Below are positions 3,566-10,180 of a stretch of DNA of 52,088 nucleotides, in pieces. Each line of letters starts with the position of its first letter. The stretch's first letter is position 1. The DNA lies in assembly GCA_020725555.1 (NCBI GenBank), contig DYEU01000035.1:1-52088 (forward strand), written 5' to 3'. The DNA is from Desulfatibacillum sp. GTDB taxonomy: Bacteria > Desulfobacterota > Desulfobacteria > Desulfobacterales > SpSt-501. The notes under the pieces are model-generated. The model was not told the origin of the DNA. It saw nothing but the letters and a program-made list of their open reading frames with translations, and did not search any database. Made by a program: the position numbers and the translations under genes.

Positions 3566-5221
3566 TCAGGGGGTGTGAGCCGGACAAAATCCCCGGCCGC
3601 CCAGCAGGGCCTCGATCCGCGCGAGAGGCTGAGGCCTCAGTTCCGCCGCCTCCGGCGGGACGGCGACGCCCTGGCTGCGCAGCAGGGAGGCGCGCACGGC
3701 CACGGCGGCGCCGAAGAGCAGGTTGGCGGCCACGGTGACGGTGCGCCGCTCGGCGGGGTCCTCGAGGAAGCTCCCCTTCACCCACTGGTTGAACGCCCCC
3801 ATCGCCGGGCCGCACCAGATTTGGTAGTCCATGCGCCGCGAGGGATCGCCCTCGATCGCCCAGCGCGAGGAGCGGCCCAGGTAGGAGCGGAAGACGAGCG
3901 CCATCTTGTGCCGCGGGTTGCGCTCGGCGAGCTCGATCTGTCGTGGATCCCGGGCTTGGAAGAAGGCGCGCGTCGCCTGCCATTCCTCCTCGAAGGCGCG
4001 GCGGAAGAAATCGCTTTCCAGGGCCGCCCGCTGCCGCTCGGGGATGTCCTCCCAGCGCTCGTGGTGCAGGAAGAGCTCGTAGAGCCTGGCGGCCCGCTGG
4101 GCGAACATCGTGCCGCGCTTGAGCACCTGGACCTTGACGCCGAGCTCGAACATGTCGGCCGAAGGCGCCATGGCGACATCGGCCTGACCGGCTTCGGCGA
4201 GCAGGCGGCAGACGGCCTCCGAGGTGCCGGCCTCGACGCAGCCCTGATGCACCGAGCCCACCAGCACGAAGGCCGCCCCCATGGCGAAGGCCGCCGCCGC
4301 CGAGAGGGGGGTGGCGATCCCGCCGGCCAGCCCGACCCGCACCCGGTGGGCATAGCCGTGCTCGCGGCAGCAGTCGTCGCGCAGGGCGAGGATCGTGGGA
4401 AAGAGCGCGATCGCCGGGCGGTTGTCGGTGTGGCCGCCGGAGTCGGCCTCGGCGGTCAGGTCCTCGGCGAGCGGGATGTGTGCGGCGAGTTCCGCCTCCT
4501 GCGGGAGGAGCGCGCCGCGGCGCACCCAGTACTCCAGGTGGCGCGGGGGCGGCGGGGCGAGAAAGCGGCGGGCCACCTCCACGCGGGAGATCTTGGCGAC
4601 CAGCCGGTTGGGGCAGACGACGCGGCCGTCGGGGTCGCGGCGGATGCCGCGGACGCGGAACAGGGTGAGCGCCGGGGTGGGCTCGACGAAGGCCGAGGCG
4701 CTGGCGACGGTGACGCCGCGGGCGAGAAAGATCTCCGCGAGCCGGGTCTCGAGCTCCGGGTCACCGGGGCTGTGGATCAGGTTCACGCCGAAGGGCACCG
4801 GCGGGCTCGTGCGCTGCAGGGCATCGATCGCCTCCTCGACCTCCGCAGGCAACAGCCCCCCGGCGCCGAAGAAGCCGATCATCCCGGCCTGCCCGGCCTC
4901 CCGGACCATGCGCACCGAGGTGATGCCGTTCGCCATCTCGCCCACGACATAGGCGTAGCGCAGGCCGTAGGCGGAGCGGAACTCCGGGTCGCCGAGCGCC
5001 TCGGGGTGGATCGGGGGCGCCCAGGCGACGAGGGGCAAACCCGCCTCCCCGGTGGCCTGCAGCGGGGGAGGGACGAGGGCCGTCCCCGAGCGGGCGAGGA
5101 GGAGCCGATCGCCCGAGCGCACGACGAAGAGGGGCTGCGTCGCCTGCAGGAGTCCCTCGCGGAGCCCCTGGGCATCGAGGGGCACGGGCTCGGCCCCGCA
5201 GGGTCGAAAGGTTCCGATCAC
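3566..5221 (-). CDS. pfaD: PfaD-like FMN-dependent enoyl reductase of the secondary lipid synthase
   Basis: 551-residue TIM-barrel FMN protein related to 2-nitropropane dioxygenase and to PfaD, the stand-alone enoyl reductase of PUFA synthases. The N-terminal part (about 1-90) is the PfaD-specific extension. The barrel starts near FGVNLIHSP. The segment around EADSGGHTDNRPA carries the flavin-site His and is followed by RVGLAGGIATP, the usual phosphate-binding glycine turn. The GTG start has GGAAG five bases upstream. It lies between xerD and pfaA, all on the minus strand. pfaD precedes pfaA here, whereas in classical marine clusters pfaD is last. Function by family is strong; lipid identity is unknown. 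Confidence 0.9.
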   Translation of the reverse strand: MIGTFRPCGAEPVPLDAQGLREGLLQATQPLFVVRSGDRLLLARSGTALVPPPLQATGEAGLPLVAWAPPIHPEALGDPEFRSAYGLRYAYVVGEMANGITSVRMVREAGQAGMIGFFGAGGLLPAEVEEAIDALQRTSPPVPFGVNLIHSPGDPELETRLAEIFLARGVTVASASAFVEPTPALTLFRVRGIRRDPDGRVVCPNRLVAKISRVEVARRFLAPPPPRHLEYWVRRGALLPQEAELAAHIPLAEDLTAEADSGGHTDNRPAIALFPTILALRDDCCREHGYAHRVRVGLAGGIATPLSAAAAFAMGAAFVLVGSVHQGCVEAGTSEAVCRLLAEAGQADVAMAPSADMFELGVKVQVLKRGTMFAQRAARLYELFLHHERWEDIPERQRAALESDFFRRAFEEEWQATRAFFQARDPRQIELAERNPRHKMALVFRSYLGRSSRWAIEGDPSRRMDYQIWCGPAMGAFNQWVKGSFLEDPAERRTVTVAANLLFGAAVAVRASLLRSQGVAVPPEAAELRPQPLARIEALLGGRGFCPAHTP

Positions 5222-5356: not shown

Positions 5357-6262
5357 TCACCCCCGCGGGTGGTGGCGGCGGTGGAGCTCTTTCAGCCGCT
5401 CGCGGCTGACGTGGGTATAGATCTGGGTGGTGGCGATGTCGGCATGCCCGAGCAGGATCTGCACCGTGCGCAGGTCGGCGCCGCCCTCGAGCAGGTGGGT
5501 GGCGAAGGAGTGCCTGAGGCTGTGGGGGGTCGTCCGGCGCTCGATGCCGGCCGCGCGGGCGTAAGCCTGGAGCCGCTTCCAGAACCCCTGCCGGCTGAGG
5601 GGCTTGCCGGCGCGGCCGACGAAGAGAAAGGGGCTGGGTATCCCCTTCAGCAGCCGCGCGCGGGCCTGTTCCAGGTAGAGGCGGATTTTCTCCCGCGCGG
5701 GGTTCCCGATGGGGACCAGCCGCTCCTTGGCGCCCTTGCCGAGGACGCGCACGAAGCCGGATGCGAGATCGACGTCCTGCAGCCGCAGGGCCGTGAGCTC
5801 CGAGACGCGCAGGCCCGCGGCGTAGAGGAGCTCGAGCATGGCCGCGTCCCGCAGGCCGGCGGGGCGGTCCCCGGCCGGGGCGTTGAGCAGGCGCTCGACC
5901 TCGGCGAGGCTCAGGGTGTCGGGGAGGCGCAAGGGGATGCGCGGCGGGTCGACCCGCGCCGCGGGATCCGCGGCGAGCACCCCCTCGCGGAGGAGGAAGC
6001 GGTAGAGCGAGCGCAGCGAGACGAGGTGGCGGGCGCGGGAGCGGGAGCCCAGCCCCTCGGCGCGCAGGCGGATCAGGTACTCGAGCAGAACCGCCGTGTC
6101 CTCCTCGGAGAAGGTCTCCCTGCCGCGGGCGGCGAGAAAATCGACGTAGCGGCGCAGGTCGGAGGCATAGGCCGCGAGCGTGGCCTGCGCGAGGCCCTTC
6201 TCGACGAGCAGGTGTTCCAGGAAGCGATCGACGAGGGAGGAACAGGGCGCCAAGGGTTCCAT
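5357..6262 (-). CDS. xerD: Tyrosine recombinase XerD/XerC
   Basis: 301-residue site-specific recombinase, the usual Xer length. It resolves chromosome dimers at dif with a partner Xer protein. The SAM-like core-binding domain covers about residues 5-90 and the catalytic domain about 110-295. All catalytic residues are visible: Arg152 in GLRVSEL, Lys176 in LGKGAKE, His247 and Arg250 in HSLRHSFATH, His273 in LLGHADI, and nucleophile Tyr282 in QIYTHVS. I chose the ATG that gives MEPLAPC because the upstream in-frame extension resembles nothing in the family. No integrase-associated att site or phage gene is nearby, so this looks like the housekeeping enzyme. XerC and XerD are hard to separate by eye. 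Confidence 0.9.
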   Translation of the reverse strand: MEPLAPCSSLVDRFLEHLLVEKGLAQATLAAYASDLRRYVDFLAARGRETFSEEDTAVLLEYLIRLRAEGLGSRSRARHLVSLRSLYRFLLREGVLAADPAARVDPPRIPLRLPDTLSLAEVERLLNAPAGDRPAGLRDAAMLELLYAAGLRVSELTALRLQDVDLASGFVRVLGKGAKERLVPIGNPAREKIRLYLEQARARLLKGIPSPFLFVGRAGKPLSRQGFWKRLQAYARAAGIERRTTPHSLRHSFATHLLEGGADLRTVQILLGHADIATTQIYTHVSRERLKELHRRHHPRG

Positions 6263-6346
6263 AGGGATCGGCTCTCTGGGTAGCACGAAGGCCGCGCAGT
6301 TTCCAGGGGGGATCCTCCGCGCGACAGGGGGGCCGCCGGGCGGTGT

Positions 6347-6375
6347 TTGACAAACCTCCCCGGCGGCTCTAAAAC
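6347..6375 (+). promoter_or_regulatory. Candidate sigma-70 promoter for the glutamate-synthase-like/GDH operon
   Basis: TTGACA (6347-6352), a 17-base spacer and TAAAAC (6370-6375, 4 of 6 matches), pointing at the gene starting at 6547. The predicted leader is about 165 bases. It begins with a 6-bp GC hairpin (arms 6382-6387 and 6394-6399) and contains a 13-C run. Confidence 0.5.
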
Positions 6376-6441
6376 GCCTCTCGCCGCTTTTCCGCGGCGC
6401 TTCCTCCCCCTCGTCCTCTTTTCCGGCACGGTCGAAGCGCG

Positions 6442-6454
6442 CCCCCCCCCCCCC
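6442..6454. repeat. Homopolymer run of 13 C in the leader of the glutamate-synthase-like gene
   Basis: An uninterrupted run of 13 C residues lies between the candidate promoter and the start codon at 6547, about 90 bases before the start. Such runs are prone to slipped-strand length change. Here it is outside any coding frame, so an effect would be on the leader RNA. It could also be a sequencing-sensitive site. Confidence 0.85.
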
Positions 6455-6546
6455 GGCCGCGGCGGGCGGAATCGTGAGTCGGGCCCCACGCAAAGGCTTG
6501 CCAACGTCCGGGCTCCCCGGCGTGCACCCAGAAAGGAGAACGCAGC

Positions 6547-8130
6547 ATGAACCTTCATCGCCCCAATGCCAACGAGGCCTTGCAGACCGCCAACCGCTCG
6601 CGCAACGTCGTTCCCCAGTCCGGCATCTGCAGCCGCTGCATCGACGGCTGCCGCGGCAATTGCGATCTCTTCCGCGCCACGTTCCGCGGCCGGGAGGTGC
6701 TCTACCCGGAGCCCTTCGGCAGCGTGACCGCGGGGGCCGACAAGGATTACCCCGTGGATTACTCCCACCTCAACATCCTGGGCTACGCCTTCGGCGCCAA
6801 GGGGGCGCCGGCGGACCCCGACGTCGCCACCTTCCCCAACGTGAACACCGAGACCGAGTTCGGGGGGCGGCACAAGGTGCGCATGAAGATCCCCGTCTTC
6901 ACCGGCGCGCTGGGCAGCACGGACATCGCGCGCAAGAACTGGGAGCACTTCGCGGTCGGCGCCGCGATCAGCGGGATCAGCATCGTCTGCGGCGAAAACG
7001 TCTGCGGCATCGACCCGGAGCTCGAGCTGAACGGCCGGGGGCGGATCGTCAAGTCCCCCGAGATGGACCGCCGCGTGCGCGAATACCGGCGTTACCACGA
7101 GGGCTGGGGCGACATCCTCGTGCAGATGAACGTCGAGGACACCCGGCTGGGGGTGGCCGAGTACGCGATCGAGAAGCTCGGCGTCGAGACGATCGAGCTC
7201 AAGTGGGGCCAGGGCGCCAAGTGCATCGGCGGCGAGATCAAGGTGAACTCGCTTGCCCGCGCGCTCGAGCTCAAGAAGCGCGGCTATATCGTGACCCCCG
7301 ACCCGGAACTCCCGGCCAACCAGGCGGCCTTCAAGGCGGGCCCCCTCAAGCAGTTCGAGCGCCATTCCCGCCTCGGCTTCATCGACGCGGAGGGCTTCGC
7401 GCGGGAAGTCGAGCGGCTGCGCGGGCTGGGGGCCAAGCGCGTGACCCTGAAGACGGGCGCCTACCCCATGCGCGAGCTCGCCATGGCCATCCGCTGGTCG
7501 AGCGACGCCGGCATCGATCTGCTGACCATCGACGGGGCTCCCGGCGGCACGGGCATGAGCCCCTGGCGCATGATGGCCGAGTGGGGGATCCCCTCGATCT
7601 ACCTCCATTCCATGGCCTGGGAGCTCTGCGAGCGGCTCTCCCGCGCGGGGCGCCGCGTCCCCGACATCGCCTTCGCCGGCGGGTTCTCCTCCGAGGACCA
7701 CGTGTTCAAGGCCCTCGCCCTCGGCTCCCCCTACTGCAAGGCGGTCTGCATGGGCCGGGCGCTCATGATCCCCGGGATGGTCGGCAAGAACGCCGAGAAA
7801 TGGCTGCGCGGCGAGGACGAGGGGCTGCCCAAGACGGTCTCCCGCTACGGCATGACCAAGGAGGAGATCTTCATGAACTACGAGCTCCTGCGGGAAAAGT
7901 ACGGCCAGGAGGTCGAGCGCTTCCCGCTGGGGGCGATCGGCATCTACAACGCGATCGACAAGATCCGCGTGGGGCTCCAGCAGCTCATGGCCGGCACGCG
8001 CAGCTGGGCCGTCGGCTTCATCGAACGCCGCGATCTCGTGTCGCTGACGGAGGAGTGCGCCCGGGTCACGGGCATCCCCTACGTCATGGACGCGTTCCGT
8101 GAAGAAGCCCTGGCCATCATCGACGCCTGA
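6547..8130 (+). CDS. Stand-alone FMN-binding glutamate-synthase-like protein (GltB central domain)
   Basis: 527 residues matching the FMN-binding synthase domain of glutamate synthase, without the N-terminal glutaminase domain or the C-terminal GltB beta-helix. The motifs KWGQGAKCIGGEIK and DGAPGGTGMSPWRM correspond to the flavin and 2-oxoglutarate site loops of GltB. The N-terminus has four closely spaced cysteines (28, 31, 35, 39; CX2CX3CX3C), a likely metal or Fe-S site. The strong AAAGGAG ribosome site fixes the ATG. It is followed 36 bases later by a divergent glutamate dehydrogenase, suggesting a two-gene operon in nitrogen or amino acid metabolism. Without a glutaminase domain, glutamate synthase activity would need a partner or free ammonia. 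The real substrate is not known. Confidence 0.85.
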   Translation: MNLHRPNANEALQTANRSRNVVPQSGICSRCIDGCRGNCDLFRATFRGREVLYPEPFGSVTAGADKDYPVDYSHLNILGYAFGAKGAPADPDVATFPNVNTETEFGGRHKVRMKIPVFTGALGSTDIARKNWEHFAVGAAISGISIVCGENVCGIDPELELNGRGRIVKSPEMDRRVREYRRYHEGWGDILVQMNVEDTRLGVAEYAIEKLGVETIELKWGQGAKCIGGEIKVNSLARALELKKRGYIVTPDPELPANQAAFKAGPLKQFERHSRLGFIDAEGFAREVERLRGLGAKRVTLKTGAYPMRELAMAIRWSSDAGIDLLTIDGAPGGTGMSPWRMMAEWGIPSIYLHSMAWELCERLSRAGRRVPDIAFAGGFSSEDHVFKALALGSPYCKAVCMGRALMIPGMVGKNAEKWLRGEDEGLPKTVSRYGMTKEEIFMNYELLREKYGQEVERFPLGAIGIYNAIDKIRVGLQQLMAGTRSWAVGFIERRDLVSLTEECARVTGIPYVMDAFREEALAIIDA

Positions 8131-8166
8131 GCCCCGCGCGGCGGGTTCCCGAAAAGGAGATCTCCC

Positions 8167-9516
8167 ATGACGGACATCCTGCGCAAACTGGCCGCACGCG
8201 ACCCCGGAGAAAAGGAGTTCCACCAGGCGGTGCGCGAGGTGCTCGACGCCGTCGCCCCCGTGCTCGAACGCCACCCGGAATACCGACGCAACGCCCTCCT
8301 CGAGCGCCTCTTCGAGCCCGAACGCACGATCCTCTTCCGCGTCCCCTGGATGGACGACCGCCAGCAGTTCCACGTCCACCGCGGCGTGCGCGTGGAGATG
8401 AGCAGCGCGATCGGGCCCTACAAGGGGGGGCTGCGCTTTCACCCCTCGGTGACGCTCGGCATCCTGAAGTCTCTCGCGCTCGAGAACGTGTTCAAGAACG
8501 CCCTCACCCCCCTGAGCATGGGGGGCGCCCACGGCGGCTCGGACTTCGACCCCAAGGGCCGCTCGGACACCGAGATCATGCGTTTCTGCCAGAGCTTCGT
8601 CGCCGAGCTCTTCCGGCACATCGGCCCGCACACCGACATCCCCGAAGGCGACATCGGCGTGGGCGCGCGCGAAATCGGCTTTCTCTTCGGCATGTACCGG
8701 AAGCTGAGAAACGAGTTCACCGGCTCCTTCACCGGGAAAAGCCTCGACTGGGGCGGCAGCGCGCTCAGGCGGGAAGCCGCGGGCTACGGGGTCGTCTACT
8801 TCGCGGCCGAGATGCTCGCCGCCCGCGGGGAGAGCCTCGAGGGCAAGGTGTGCCTCGTCTCGGGGGCCGGCAACGTGGCCCAGCACACCGCGGAGAAGCT
8901 GGTGGCGATGGGGGCGAAGGTGGTGAGCCTCTCGGACTCGAGCGGCGCGATCTACGACGAGGAGGGCTTCGACCCCGCCAAGATCGATTTCATCAAGCGC
9001 CTGAAGAACATCCGCCGCGCCCGGATCGGCGAATACGTCGACAAGTATTCCCAGGCGGTCTATCTCGAGCGGGACCTCCGCCTGGACCACAACCCCCTCT
9101 GGAAGATCCCCTGCGATTGCGCCTTCCCGTGCGCCACGGAACACGAGATCCAGCGCAAGGACGCCGAACACCTCGTCGCCAACGGGGTCCGCCTCGTGGT
9201 CGAGGGGGCCTCGATGGCCTCCGCCCCGGAGGCGGTGCGGCTCTTCGAGGAGCGCGGCACGGCCTACGCGCCGGGCAAGGCGGCCAACGCCGGCGGGGTG
9301 GTCGTCTCGGGCCTGGAGATGGCCCAGAACAGCATGCGGCTCACCTGGACCGCCGAAGAGGTCGACCGTCGGCTCCGGGCGGGGATGAAGGGCATCCACC
9401 GGAGCTGCCTCGAGGCGGCCGAGCGCTACGGCCGTGCCGGGAACATCCTCGTCGGGGCGAACATCGCCGGTTTCCTCAAGGTGGTCCGGGCGCTCCTCGA
9501 CCAGGGGCTCGTCTGA
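8167..9516 (+). CDS. gdhA: Divergent NADP-type glutamate dehydrogenase (catalytic Lys replaced by His)
   Basis: 449 residues, the normal length for hexameric family I glutamate dehydrogenase, with both the substrate domain (about 1-200) and the Rossmann domain (SGAGNVAQHTAEKL). Substrate lysines 86 (YKGGLRFHPS) and 110 (VFKNAL) and Asp162 (GDIGVGAREIG) are present. The catalytic lysine of the GGAKGG/GGGKGG loop is His122 here (MGGAHGGSDFDPKG, codon CAC). Other usually fixed positions also differ: RPEATGYG is RREAAGYG, and GANMP is GASMA. AAAAGGAGA precedes the ATG. The fold is intact and there is no frameshift, so this is a maintained gene, but its activity as glutamate dehydrogenase is doubtful. 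It probably works with the preceding glutamate-synthase-like protein. Confidence 0.85.
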   Translation: MTDILRKLAARDPGEKEFHQAVREVLDAVAPVLERHPEYRRNALLERLFEPERTILFRVPWMDDRQQFHVHRGVRVEMSSAIGPYKGGLRFHPSVTLGILKSLALENVFKNALTPLSMGGAHGGSDFDPKGRSDTEIMRFCQSFVAELFRHIGPHTDIPEGDIGVGAREIGFLFGMYRKLRNEFTGSFTGKSLDWGGSALRREAAGYGVVYFAAEMLAARGESLEGKVCLVSGAGNVAQHTAEKLVAMGAKVVSLSDSSGAIYDEEGFDPAKIDFIKRLKNIRRARIGEYVDKYSQAVYLERDLRLDHNPLWKIPCDCAFPCATEHEIQRKDAEHLVANGVRLVVEGASMASAPEAVRLFEERGTAYAPGKAANAGGVVVSGLEMAQNSMRLTWTAEEVDRRLRAGMKGIHRSCLEAAERYGRAGNILVGANIAGFLKVVRALLDQGLV

Positions 9517-9526
9517 GGGGGGCGGG

Positions 9527-10180
9527 GTGCGTTTCCGGGCGGCGGTTTTCGATCTCGACGGCACCCTGCTCGACACCCTCGAGGACCTGGCCGGGGCGAT
9601 GAACGCCGTTCTCGCCCGCCACGGCCTCCCGCCGCACCCGGTGGGCGCCTACCGCGGCTTCGTGGGGGAGGGGATCGAGGCCCTCGTCCGGCGGGCGCTT
9701 CCCCGGCCGCTTCCGCCGGAGGAGACGGTGGCCCAGCGGGTGCGCGAGATGCGCGCCGAGTACGACCGGCGCTGCCTCGCGTGCACCCGCCCCTTCCCGG
9801 GCGTGCCGGAGCTTCTCGCCGCCTGCCGCGAGGCGGGGGCGGCGCTCGCCGTCCTCACGAACAAGCCCGAGGAGCCCGCGCGCCGCCTCCTCCAGGCCCT
9901 GCTTCCGGAGGAGGGCTTCCGCGCCGTTTGCGGCGCGCGCGCCGGCCTGCCCCGCAAACCCGACCCGGCGGGCGCCCGCGAGCTGCTCGACGCCCTGGGG
10001 GTCTCCCCTCAGGAGGCGTTCCTCCTGGGAGACAGCGGCGTGGACATGCAGACGGCCGTCGCGGCGGGCCTCTTTCCCGTAGGCGCCCTCTGGGGGTTTC
10101 GGCCGGCCGGGGAGCTTTTGGCCGCGGGGGCGCGCCTGCTCGCCGCATCCCCCCTCGACCTCGTCCCCTGGATCCGCTGA
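9527..10180 (+). CDS. gph: HAD-superfamily phosphatase, phosphoglycolate phosphatase-like
   Basis: 217-residue haloacid dehalogenase hydrolase. Motif I is FDLDGTLLDT near the N-terminus (nucleophile Asp9, Asp11), followed by a helical cap (about 18-90), motif II LTNKPEEP and the metal-binding motif IV LLGDSGVDMQTA. These features fit Gph (2-phosphoglycolate phosphatase), though relatives such as pyrophosphatase PpaX look alike. The GTG start lies ten bases after the dehydrogenase stop, within a GGGGGGCGGG ribosome-binding stretch. It is transcribed with the preceding two genes and meets the zinc-ribbon gene head to head after only 12 bases, with no visible terminator. Confidence 0.8.
   Translation: MRFRAAVFDLDGTLLDTLEDLAGAMNAVLARHGLPPHPVGAYRGFVGEGIEALVRRALPRPLPPEETVAQRVREMRAEYDRRCLACTRPFPGVPELLAACREAGAALAVLTNKPEEPARRLLQALLPEEGFRAVCGARAGLPRKPDPAGARELLDALGVSPQEAFLLGDSGVDMQTAVAAGLFPVGALWGFRPAGELLAAGARLLAASPLDLVPWIR

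Follow-up and report, generated by a model that had tools for sequence, protein, structure and literature searches.

A glutamate dehydrogenase paralog without the catalytic lysine, encoded behind an FMN glutamate-synthase-like protein in Desulfatibacillum sp., as a candidate pseudoenzyme subunit

Introduction

Glutamate dehydrogenase (GDH) is a common, textbook enzyme, and the locus described here raises the question of what a protein of this fold does once its catalytic lysine has been replaced by histidine. The gene lies in the window, the whole 52,088-nucleotide stretch of Desulfatibacillum sp. DNA that was analysed, which is contig C33 of a 3.59 Mb assembly of 35 contigs, and it follows a gene for an FMN protein resembling glutamate synthase:

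6547..8130, + strand: FMN glutamate-synthase-like protein, 527 aa, PF01645; 36 bp upstream of the GDH-like gene
8167..9516, + strand: GDH-fold protein with GGAHGG replacing GGxKGG, 449 aa; NF006929, PF00208, PF02812

Results

Active site of the window protein

The reading frame runs from an ATG at 8167 to a TGA at 9514-9516 and encodes 449 residues with no interruption. The product matches PF00208 and PF02812 and scores 659.8 bits against the NCBIfam equivalog for NADP-dependent GDH (NF006929), above the cutoff of 536; its best named matches are proteins of Desulfobacterales MAGs. The nearest solved structure is that of Corynebacterium glutamicum GDH (5ijz), which aligns over residues 8-449 and places His122 at Lys128, Glu160 at Ala166, Asp162 at Asp168 and Ser349 at Asn347, with the substrate lysines Lys86 and Lys110 equivalent to Lys92 and Lys116. 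The AlphaFold model of the window protein (pLDDT 64.3, shallow alignment) is too weak for pocket geometry. Four codons carry the comparison that follows:

8530..8532, + strand: codon 122, CAC, His in place of the catalytic Lys; Lys in 97/97 ordinary relatives
8644..8646, + strand: codon 160, Glu for Ala; changed in 20/20 of the FMN-adjacent group
8650..8652, + strand: codon 162, GAC, catalytic Asp retained in the window protein; Gly in 13/20 of the FMN-adjacent group
9211..9213, + strand: codon 349, TCG, Ser for Asn; changed in 20/20 of the FMN-adjacent group

The earlier note on this DNA had reported the replacement of the catalytic lysine by His122, and the codon is indeed CAC, two base changes from either Lys codon. 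Alignment bears out the other deviations that it listed, namely RREAAGYG for RPEATGYG (P202R and T205A) and GASMA for GANMP (N349S and P351A), together with the retention of Lys86 and Lys110. The glutamate at position 160, where all 97 Lys-type relatives have alanine, is additional to that list. Altogether, the window protein deviates at 18 of the 183 positions that are near-invariant (at least 98%) in the 97 Lys-type relatives, compared with none of the 182 such positions counted in the normal GDH of the same genome, and it retains Lys86, Lys110, Asp162 and the NADP-binding core. A second species (L006/L130), whose protein is 91% identical, carries the identical CAC codon, which makes a sequencing error, named in the earlier note as a possible refutation, very unlikely.

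The affected residues have described roles. In the available part of a study of Arabidopsis GDH1, the aspartate acts as general base and the lysine readies water for its attack on the imine (PMC7326016). In E. coli GDH, the main-chain carboxylate of the substrate is held by Lys116 and Asn348, and the matching Asn347 of C. glutamicum also bonds the coenzyme, as stated in the accessible sections of PMC8784811. An acidic residue or serine at positions 349 and 160 may weaken binding of the usual substrates.

Two sets of lysine-less copies

Among the 129 distinct GDH proteins of the gathered loci, copies without the lysine fall mainly into two sets. Set 1 (n=20) is found behind the FMN gene, with one member, L153, having no FMN gene beside it. 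The lysine is lost in 17 of its 20 members (Gln in 13, Lys in 3, His in 2, Arg in 2) and the aspartate in 13 (Gly in 13, Asp in 7), whilst Ala160 (Glu in 9, Asp in 6, Gly in 5) and Asn349 (Asp in 14, Thr in 3, Ser in 2, Glu in 1) are changed in all 20. Set 2 (n=11) has alanine at the lysine position and retains the aspartate throughout (11/11 each), shows alterations of Thr205, Leu97 and Arg75 in 11/11 each, and has no adjacent FMN gene in the flanks seen. The other GDHs (n=97) all have the lysine, the aspartate, Ala160 and Asn349; this grouping was defined after the motif and the first tree had been seen, with everything else assigned to the Lys group, so that the presence of Lys122 in 97/97 is partly by construction. 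Lys86 and Lys110 are retained in all 128 GDHs compared. Rows of at most 400 residues, copies identical over residues 31-400, and L004 were left out of the comparison, and two odd rows, L143 and L157, were set apart as a fourth group. The first of these (L143:1552-2955, - strand, genome G042) is a divergent paralog, 58% identical, that retains the catalytic lysine and has Gln and Arg at substrate lysines 86 and 110 and Asp at 349. The other (L157:1514-2836, + strand, genome G079) is a GDH-I paralog with GGGSGG, placing Ser at the catalytic position, in a genome with two further copies, one normal and one of the Arg type beside the FMN gene.

The changes in set 1 are unevenly spread over the 183 near-invariant positions: the active-site loops account for 151 changes in 680 cells (22%) and the Rossmann core (226-262) for 2 in 260 (0.8%), with 139 in 2720 (5%) outside these two regions. 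The contrast is descriptive, because the hot spots were already known when the loops were delimited. The group retains 92% of the positions that do not vary among ordinary GDHs, 8% being changed.

The earlier note had asked whether GGAHGG forms a clade of its own that always sits beside the FMN protein. The two His sequences, each from a different species and the only ones found, are sister sequences, and each is encoded next to an FMN gene. A clade defined by histidine is too narrow, as members with Gln, Arg or Lys are changed at the same two pocket positions, and GGAHGG alone was set aside as the clade of interest.

Gene order

Gene order was counted over gathered loci with the FMN gene upstream of the GDH gene on the same strand, taking one row per distinct GDH start; L155, located behind an FMN fragment where a contig ends, did not pass the cut and is uncounted. 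Where the GDH gene directly follows the FMN gene (38-371 bp between match ends), the lysine and/or aspartate is lost in 17/19 and Asn349 is changed in 18/19. Where a PPDK_N/receiver gene stands between them, the lysine is lost in 0/18, the aspartate in 0/17 readable rows, and Asn349 is unchanged in 15/15 readable rows. The difference between 17/19 and 0/18 gives a Fisher p of 1e-8, which is descriptive only because the sequences are related. Two direct neighbours keep both catalytic residues: L129 has ordinary residues at every tabulated position, and L128 carries Glu at positions 160 and 349 alike, as though change in the pocket had preceded the loss of catalysis. Across the group this arrangement amounts to a durable association with the preceding gene for the FMN protein, which the earlier note had named as a possible partner.

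The middle gene of many relatives, represented by L011:1875-4913 (+ strand), encodes a PPDK_N ATP-binding domain and a receiver domain, and has homologs elsewhere in the genome of the window at C6:155825 (52%) and C30:98277 (42%).

The FMN protein and its surroundings

The FMN protein is 95% identical in the second species. PF01645 matches residues 280-408, in the middle of the protein, with 51.4 bits (cutoff 20.4), and over its 527 residues no other Pfam domain, no glutaminase domain and no NCBIfam family was found. Its AlphaFold model is weak (pLDDT 54.5, shallow alignment); the top Foldseek match is glutamate synthase (E 9e-6), with other FMN barrels scoring nearly equally. A phmmer search of PDB sequences returned two weak, unrelated matches only, and a scan of viral contigs gave no relative. 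Cys28, Cys31, Cys35 and Cys39 are invariant in 15 sequences but do not figure in the list of positions conserved at 95% or more across 56 wider relatives, and no iron-sulfur conclusion is drawn from them.

A relative of the FMN protein is encoded by 97 of the 146 genomes sampled within the order (E up to 1e-60) and by 65 of 395 genomes of the phylum (E up to 1e-200). Among 20 FMN regions from the phylum, two have the FMN-PP-GDH order with Lys and one has a 30% identical GDH-like match, and the remaining 17 have no GDH match, several regions being cut by contig ends. The occurrence of the FMN protein in many genomes without an adjacent GDH counts against an obligate pair. More distant relatives at L171-L173 and L176-L177 are 46-55% identical; an aldehyde ferredoxin oxidoreductase gene follows the one in L173. 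Judged by reading, L172 is similar, and the genes adjoining the relatives in L176 and L177 resemble those for NADH dehydrogenase/hydrogenase diaphorase subunits.

A glutaminase was absent among the FMN neighbours examined. Some FMN-PP-GDH clusters adjoin a GATase_7/PurF-like gene, and the genome of the window has a counterpart (L191; G000:C35:23177-24583) with 64% identity to the one at L189. As a glutaminase partner of the FMN protein it was set aside, as it adjoins a carB-like gene and is a PurF relative below the model cutoff. Only distant matches to it (36% or less) are present in G127, which lacks the FMN gene, and the same is true of G049, which has it.

Two further features complete the surroundings of the GDH-like gene:

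8155..8160, + strand: AGGAGA, likely ribosome binding site of the GDH-like gene, from reading the sequence
9527..10180, + strand: HAD-family hydrolase gene, PF13419; probable GTG start 10 bp after the GDH-like gene, placed by reading

The hydrolase gene possibly shares a transcript with the GDH-like gene; it is not conserved as a neighbour across the FMN-adjacent group. On the other side of the FMN gene, and divergent from it, lies a gene for a tyrosine recombinase with Phage_integrase and SAM-like domains (5357-6493, - strand), and beyond it one for a PfaD-family protein (3566-5221, - strand; TIGR02814, 598.6 bits), the enoyl reductase of polyunsaturated fatty acid/polyketide synthases.

GDH paralogs in the genome and genus

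PF00208 is matched at five places in the genome (C9, the window, C15, C30 and C3), and three of these are GDH-I paralogs. A normal GDH, which the earlier note had suggested looking for, is present on a different contig (G000:C9:28606-29952) with GGGKGG and 68% identity to the window copy. The third GDH-I paralog (L140:7573-8928, + strand; G000:C15:139584-140924), 62% identical to the window copy, reads GGGAGG, with Ala for the catalytic Lys, and lies near a groEL-like gene and not beside an FMN gene. The C30 GDH is more distant (32% identical) with Lys present, and the C3 match to PF00208 is weak and partial.

The family scan covered seven species, all of one genus. An FMN-adjacent copy is present in six (His in 2, Gln in 4), the Ala copy in six, and a normal Lys-type GDH-I in four. 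In G127 (98% complete), the Ala copy is the only GDH-I, and neither an FMN match (E up to 1e-60) nor an FMN-linked GDH copy was found. In G090 (100% complete), the Gln and Ala copies are joined by a distantly related GDH (31% identical). Neither G090 nor G066 (92% complete), both of which have the FMN pair, yielded a Lys-type GDH-I, and none was found in G148 or G054 (each about 80% complete).

Selection and phylogeny

Across seven pairs compared by the Nei-Gojobori method, dN/dS is 0.091 for the window copy and 0.054 for the normal copy of the same genome (both against G030), 0.110 for the Ala copies, 0.057 for the FMN gene, and 0.042, 0.064 and 0.055 for three Gln pairs. The window copy evolves faster than the normal copy, and all compared genes are under purifying selection. 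The earlier judgement that the gene is not decaying thus holds, with the frame intact and dN/dS at 0.09 against the nearest species.

In the first tree (72 rows), set 1 forms a single branch (17 rows, SH-aLRT 80), as does set 2 (9 rows, SH-aLRT 94), and the normal copy is placed elsewhere. In a tree without the active-site columns (69 rows, bootstrap not settled), set 2 stays intact (11 rows, 97/89), whereas set 1 separates into a 12-row branch (100/98), a branch for the genus (5 rows, 100/100) and two rows that join neither. Set 1 is thus a single clade in the first tree and is not resolved as one once those columns are removed; an AU test does not reject 17 set 1 members as one branch (p-AU 0.19). 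On the tree without active-site columns, the minimum numbers of changes are four for Lys, two for Asp and five for Asn349 (both sets and the two odd rows), and parallel loss is therefore possible.

Discussion

We tentatively favour, as the best though by no means secure explanation, that the window protein has become a pseudoenzyme, or nearly one, with the GDH fold, and that selection maintains it as a subunit partnering the upstream FMN protein. Judged by its residues, it has an altered pocket and probably little or no glutamate dehydrogenase activity, and some activity may persist because Asp162 is retained. The loss of catalytic residues and the changed pocket, alongside the retained NADP core and substrate lysines, purifying selection and the FMN link, fit a role other than that of a dehydrogenase, and suggest that the FMN-linked copy is now a helper subunit or sensor, and no ordinary dehydrogenase. 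We count in favour of a partner subunit the split by gene order (17/19 versus 0/18), the change of Ala160 and Asn349 in 20/20, the gathering of changes in active-site loops, the dN/dS values of 0.091, 0.042, 0.064 and 0.055, the joint absence of the FMN gene and the FMN-linked copy from G127, and the presence of the pair in G090 and G066 without a Lys-type GDH-I. Counted against it are the FMN genes elsewhere without an adjacent GDH, the intact L128 and L129, and L153 without an FMN gene.

As such a partner, the GDH-like gene would be co-transcribed with the FMN gene and the two proteins would interact. The GDH-fold subunit would form a hexameric scaffold, with NADP(H) and/or a small ligand bound in the altered cleft, and would organise or tune the FMN enzyme with no ordinary reductive amination of its own. 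The order FMN - PPDK_N/receiver - GDH(Lys) in relatives would represent the same association with the GDH still active; in clusters lacking the middle gene, the GDH would have kept the FMN link and lost catalysis. That the two proteins together make up a new glutamate-forming or related amine-forming enzyme is quite improbable; in it, the GDH-fold subunit would have given up reduction of its own substrate and would keep NADPH or the carbon substrate in place for its flavin partner. The GDH would then have been recruited into a minimal glutamate synthase, one lacking a glutaminase and a GltD of its own, as the half that serves as scaffold or feeds in the substrate. The upstream protein resembles the FMN domain of glutamate synthase in its PF01645 match and, with a weak model, in its best fold match, but differs in standing alone at 527 aa, with PF01645 at only 51 bits and no glutaminase domain.

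Two other readings are each unlikely without being far-fetched. The protein could be a regulatory subunit of other GDH paralogs, forming mixed hexamers with the normal C9 GDH and/or the C15 Ala copy, with FMN adjacency incidental. A precedent exists in Thermus thermophilus, whose GDH is, in the available part of PMC9570180, a heterohexamer of GdhB with the catalytically inactive regulatory subunit GdhA. The window copy is like that GdhA in being a GDH-fold paralog whose genome encodes a normal GDH as well, with its loss of catalysis predicted from residues; the genome has three GDH-I paralogs, the Lys copy is present in 4/7 species of the family, and the 92% retention of invariant positions is consistent with such a role. 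Unlike GdhA as there described, however, its fixed neighbour is an FMN protein, and the Thermus model needs a catalytic GDH partner, of which none of the Lys type of GDH-I was found in four genomes (G090, G066, G148 and G054, the last two about 80% complete). The Lys copy moreover lies on another contig, and both the FMN linkage and the tracking of loss with gene order are left unexplained. Comparably doubtful is a changed substrate or chemistry, in which His122, Glu160 and Asp162 would act together as a new catalytic set, with Ser349, at a position where most of the group have Asp, selecting a ligand other than glutamate or 2-oxoglutarate. The retained Asp162 and NADP core, and the recurrence of changes at pocket positions with no scatter, are compatible with this, as is the control of substrate choice by Asn348 and Lys116 in E. 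coli GDH, where the K116Q/N348M variant accepts levulinic acid (PMC8784811, same sections). Against it, the aspartate is lost in 13/20 and the lysine in 17/20, both residues having catalytic roles in GDH (PMC7326016, same part), and Lys110, which holds the alpha-carboxylate, is retained in 20/20. The varied replacements (Gln, His or Arg, with or without Asp) fit loss better than one new mechanism, though with Asp162 retained the window protein itself may have altered chemistry.

It is very improbable that the protein is an ordinary active GDH with histidine standing in for lysine. Its score above the NADP-GDH equivalog cutoff, its full-length similarity to NADP-specific hexameric GDH (NF006929; C. 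glutamicum 5ijz), and the retention of Asp162, Lys86, Lys110 and the NADP core would suit such an enzyme; it differs from that family, however, in His for the catalytic Lys, Glu for Ala160, Ser for Asn349, T205A, P202R and P351A, the lysine being present in 97/97 ordinary relatives, the changes of Ala160 and Asn349 being fixed in the group, and the aspartate being lost as well in sister lineages. Sequencing error or a decaying gene is scarcely credible, with the frame intact, and is ruled out for practical purposes by the CAC codon shared with the second species and the dN/dS of 0.09.

In an open-access library (titles and abstract openings, with subscription papers mostly outside), no report of Lys-less GDH paralogs in these bacteria was found. 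Since NF006929 accepts the window protein, annotation pipelines would assign it an activity that may be absent. Selected GDH copies without catalytic residues, tied to one neighbour, provide a natural experiment on the passage from enzyme to pseudoenzyme, and may lead to an FMN-linked nitrogen module, as yet undescribed, in sulfate reducers and their relatives.
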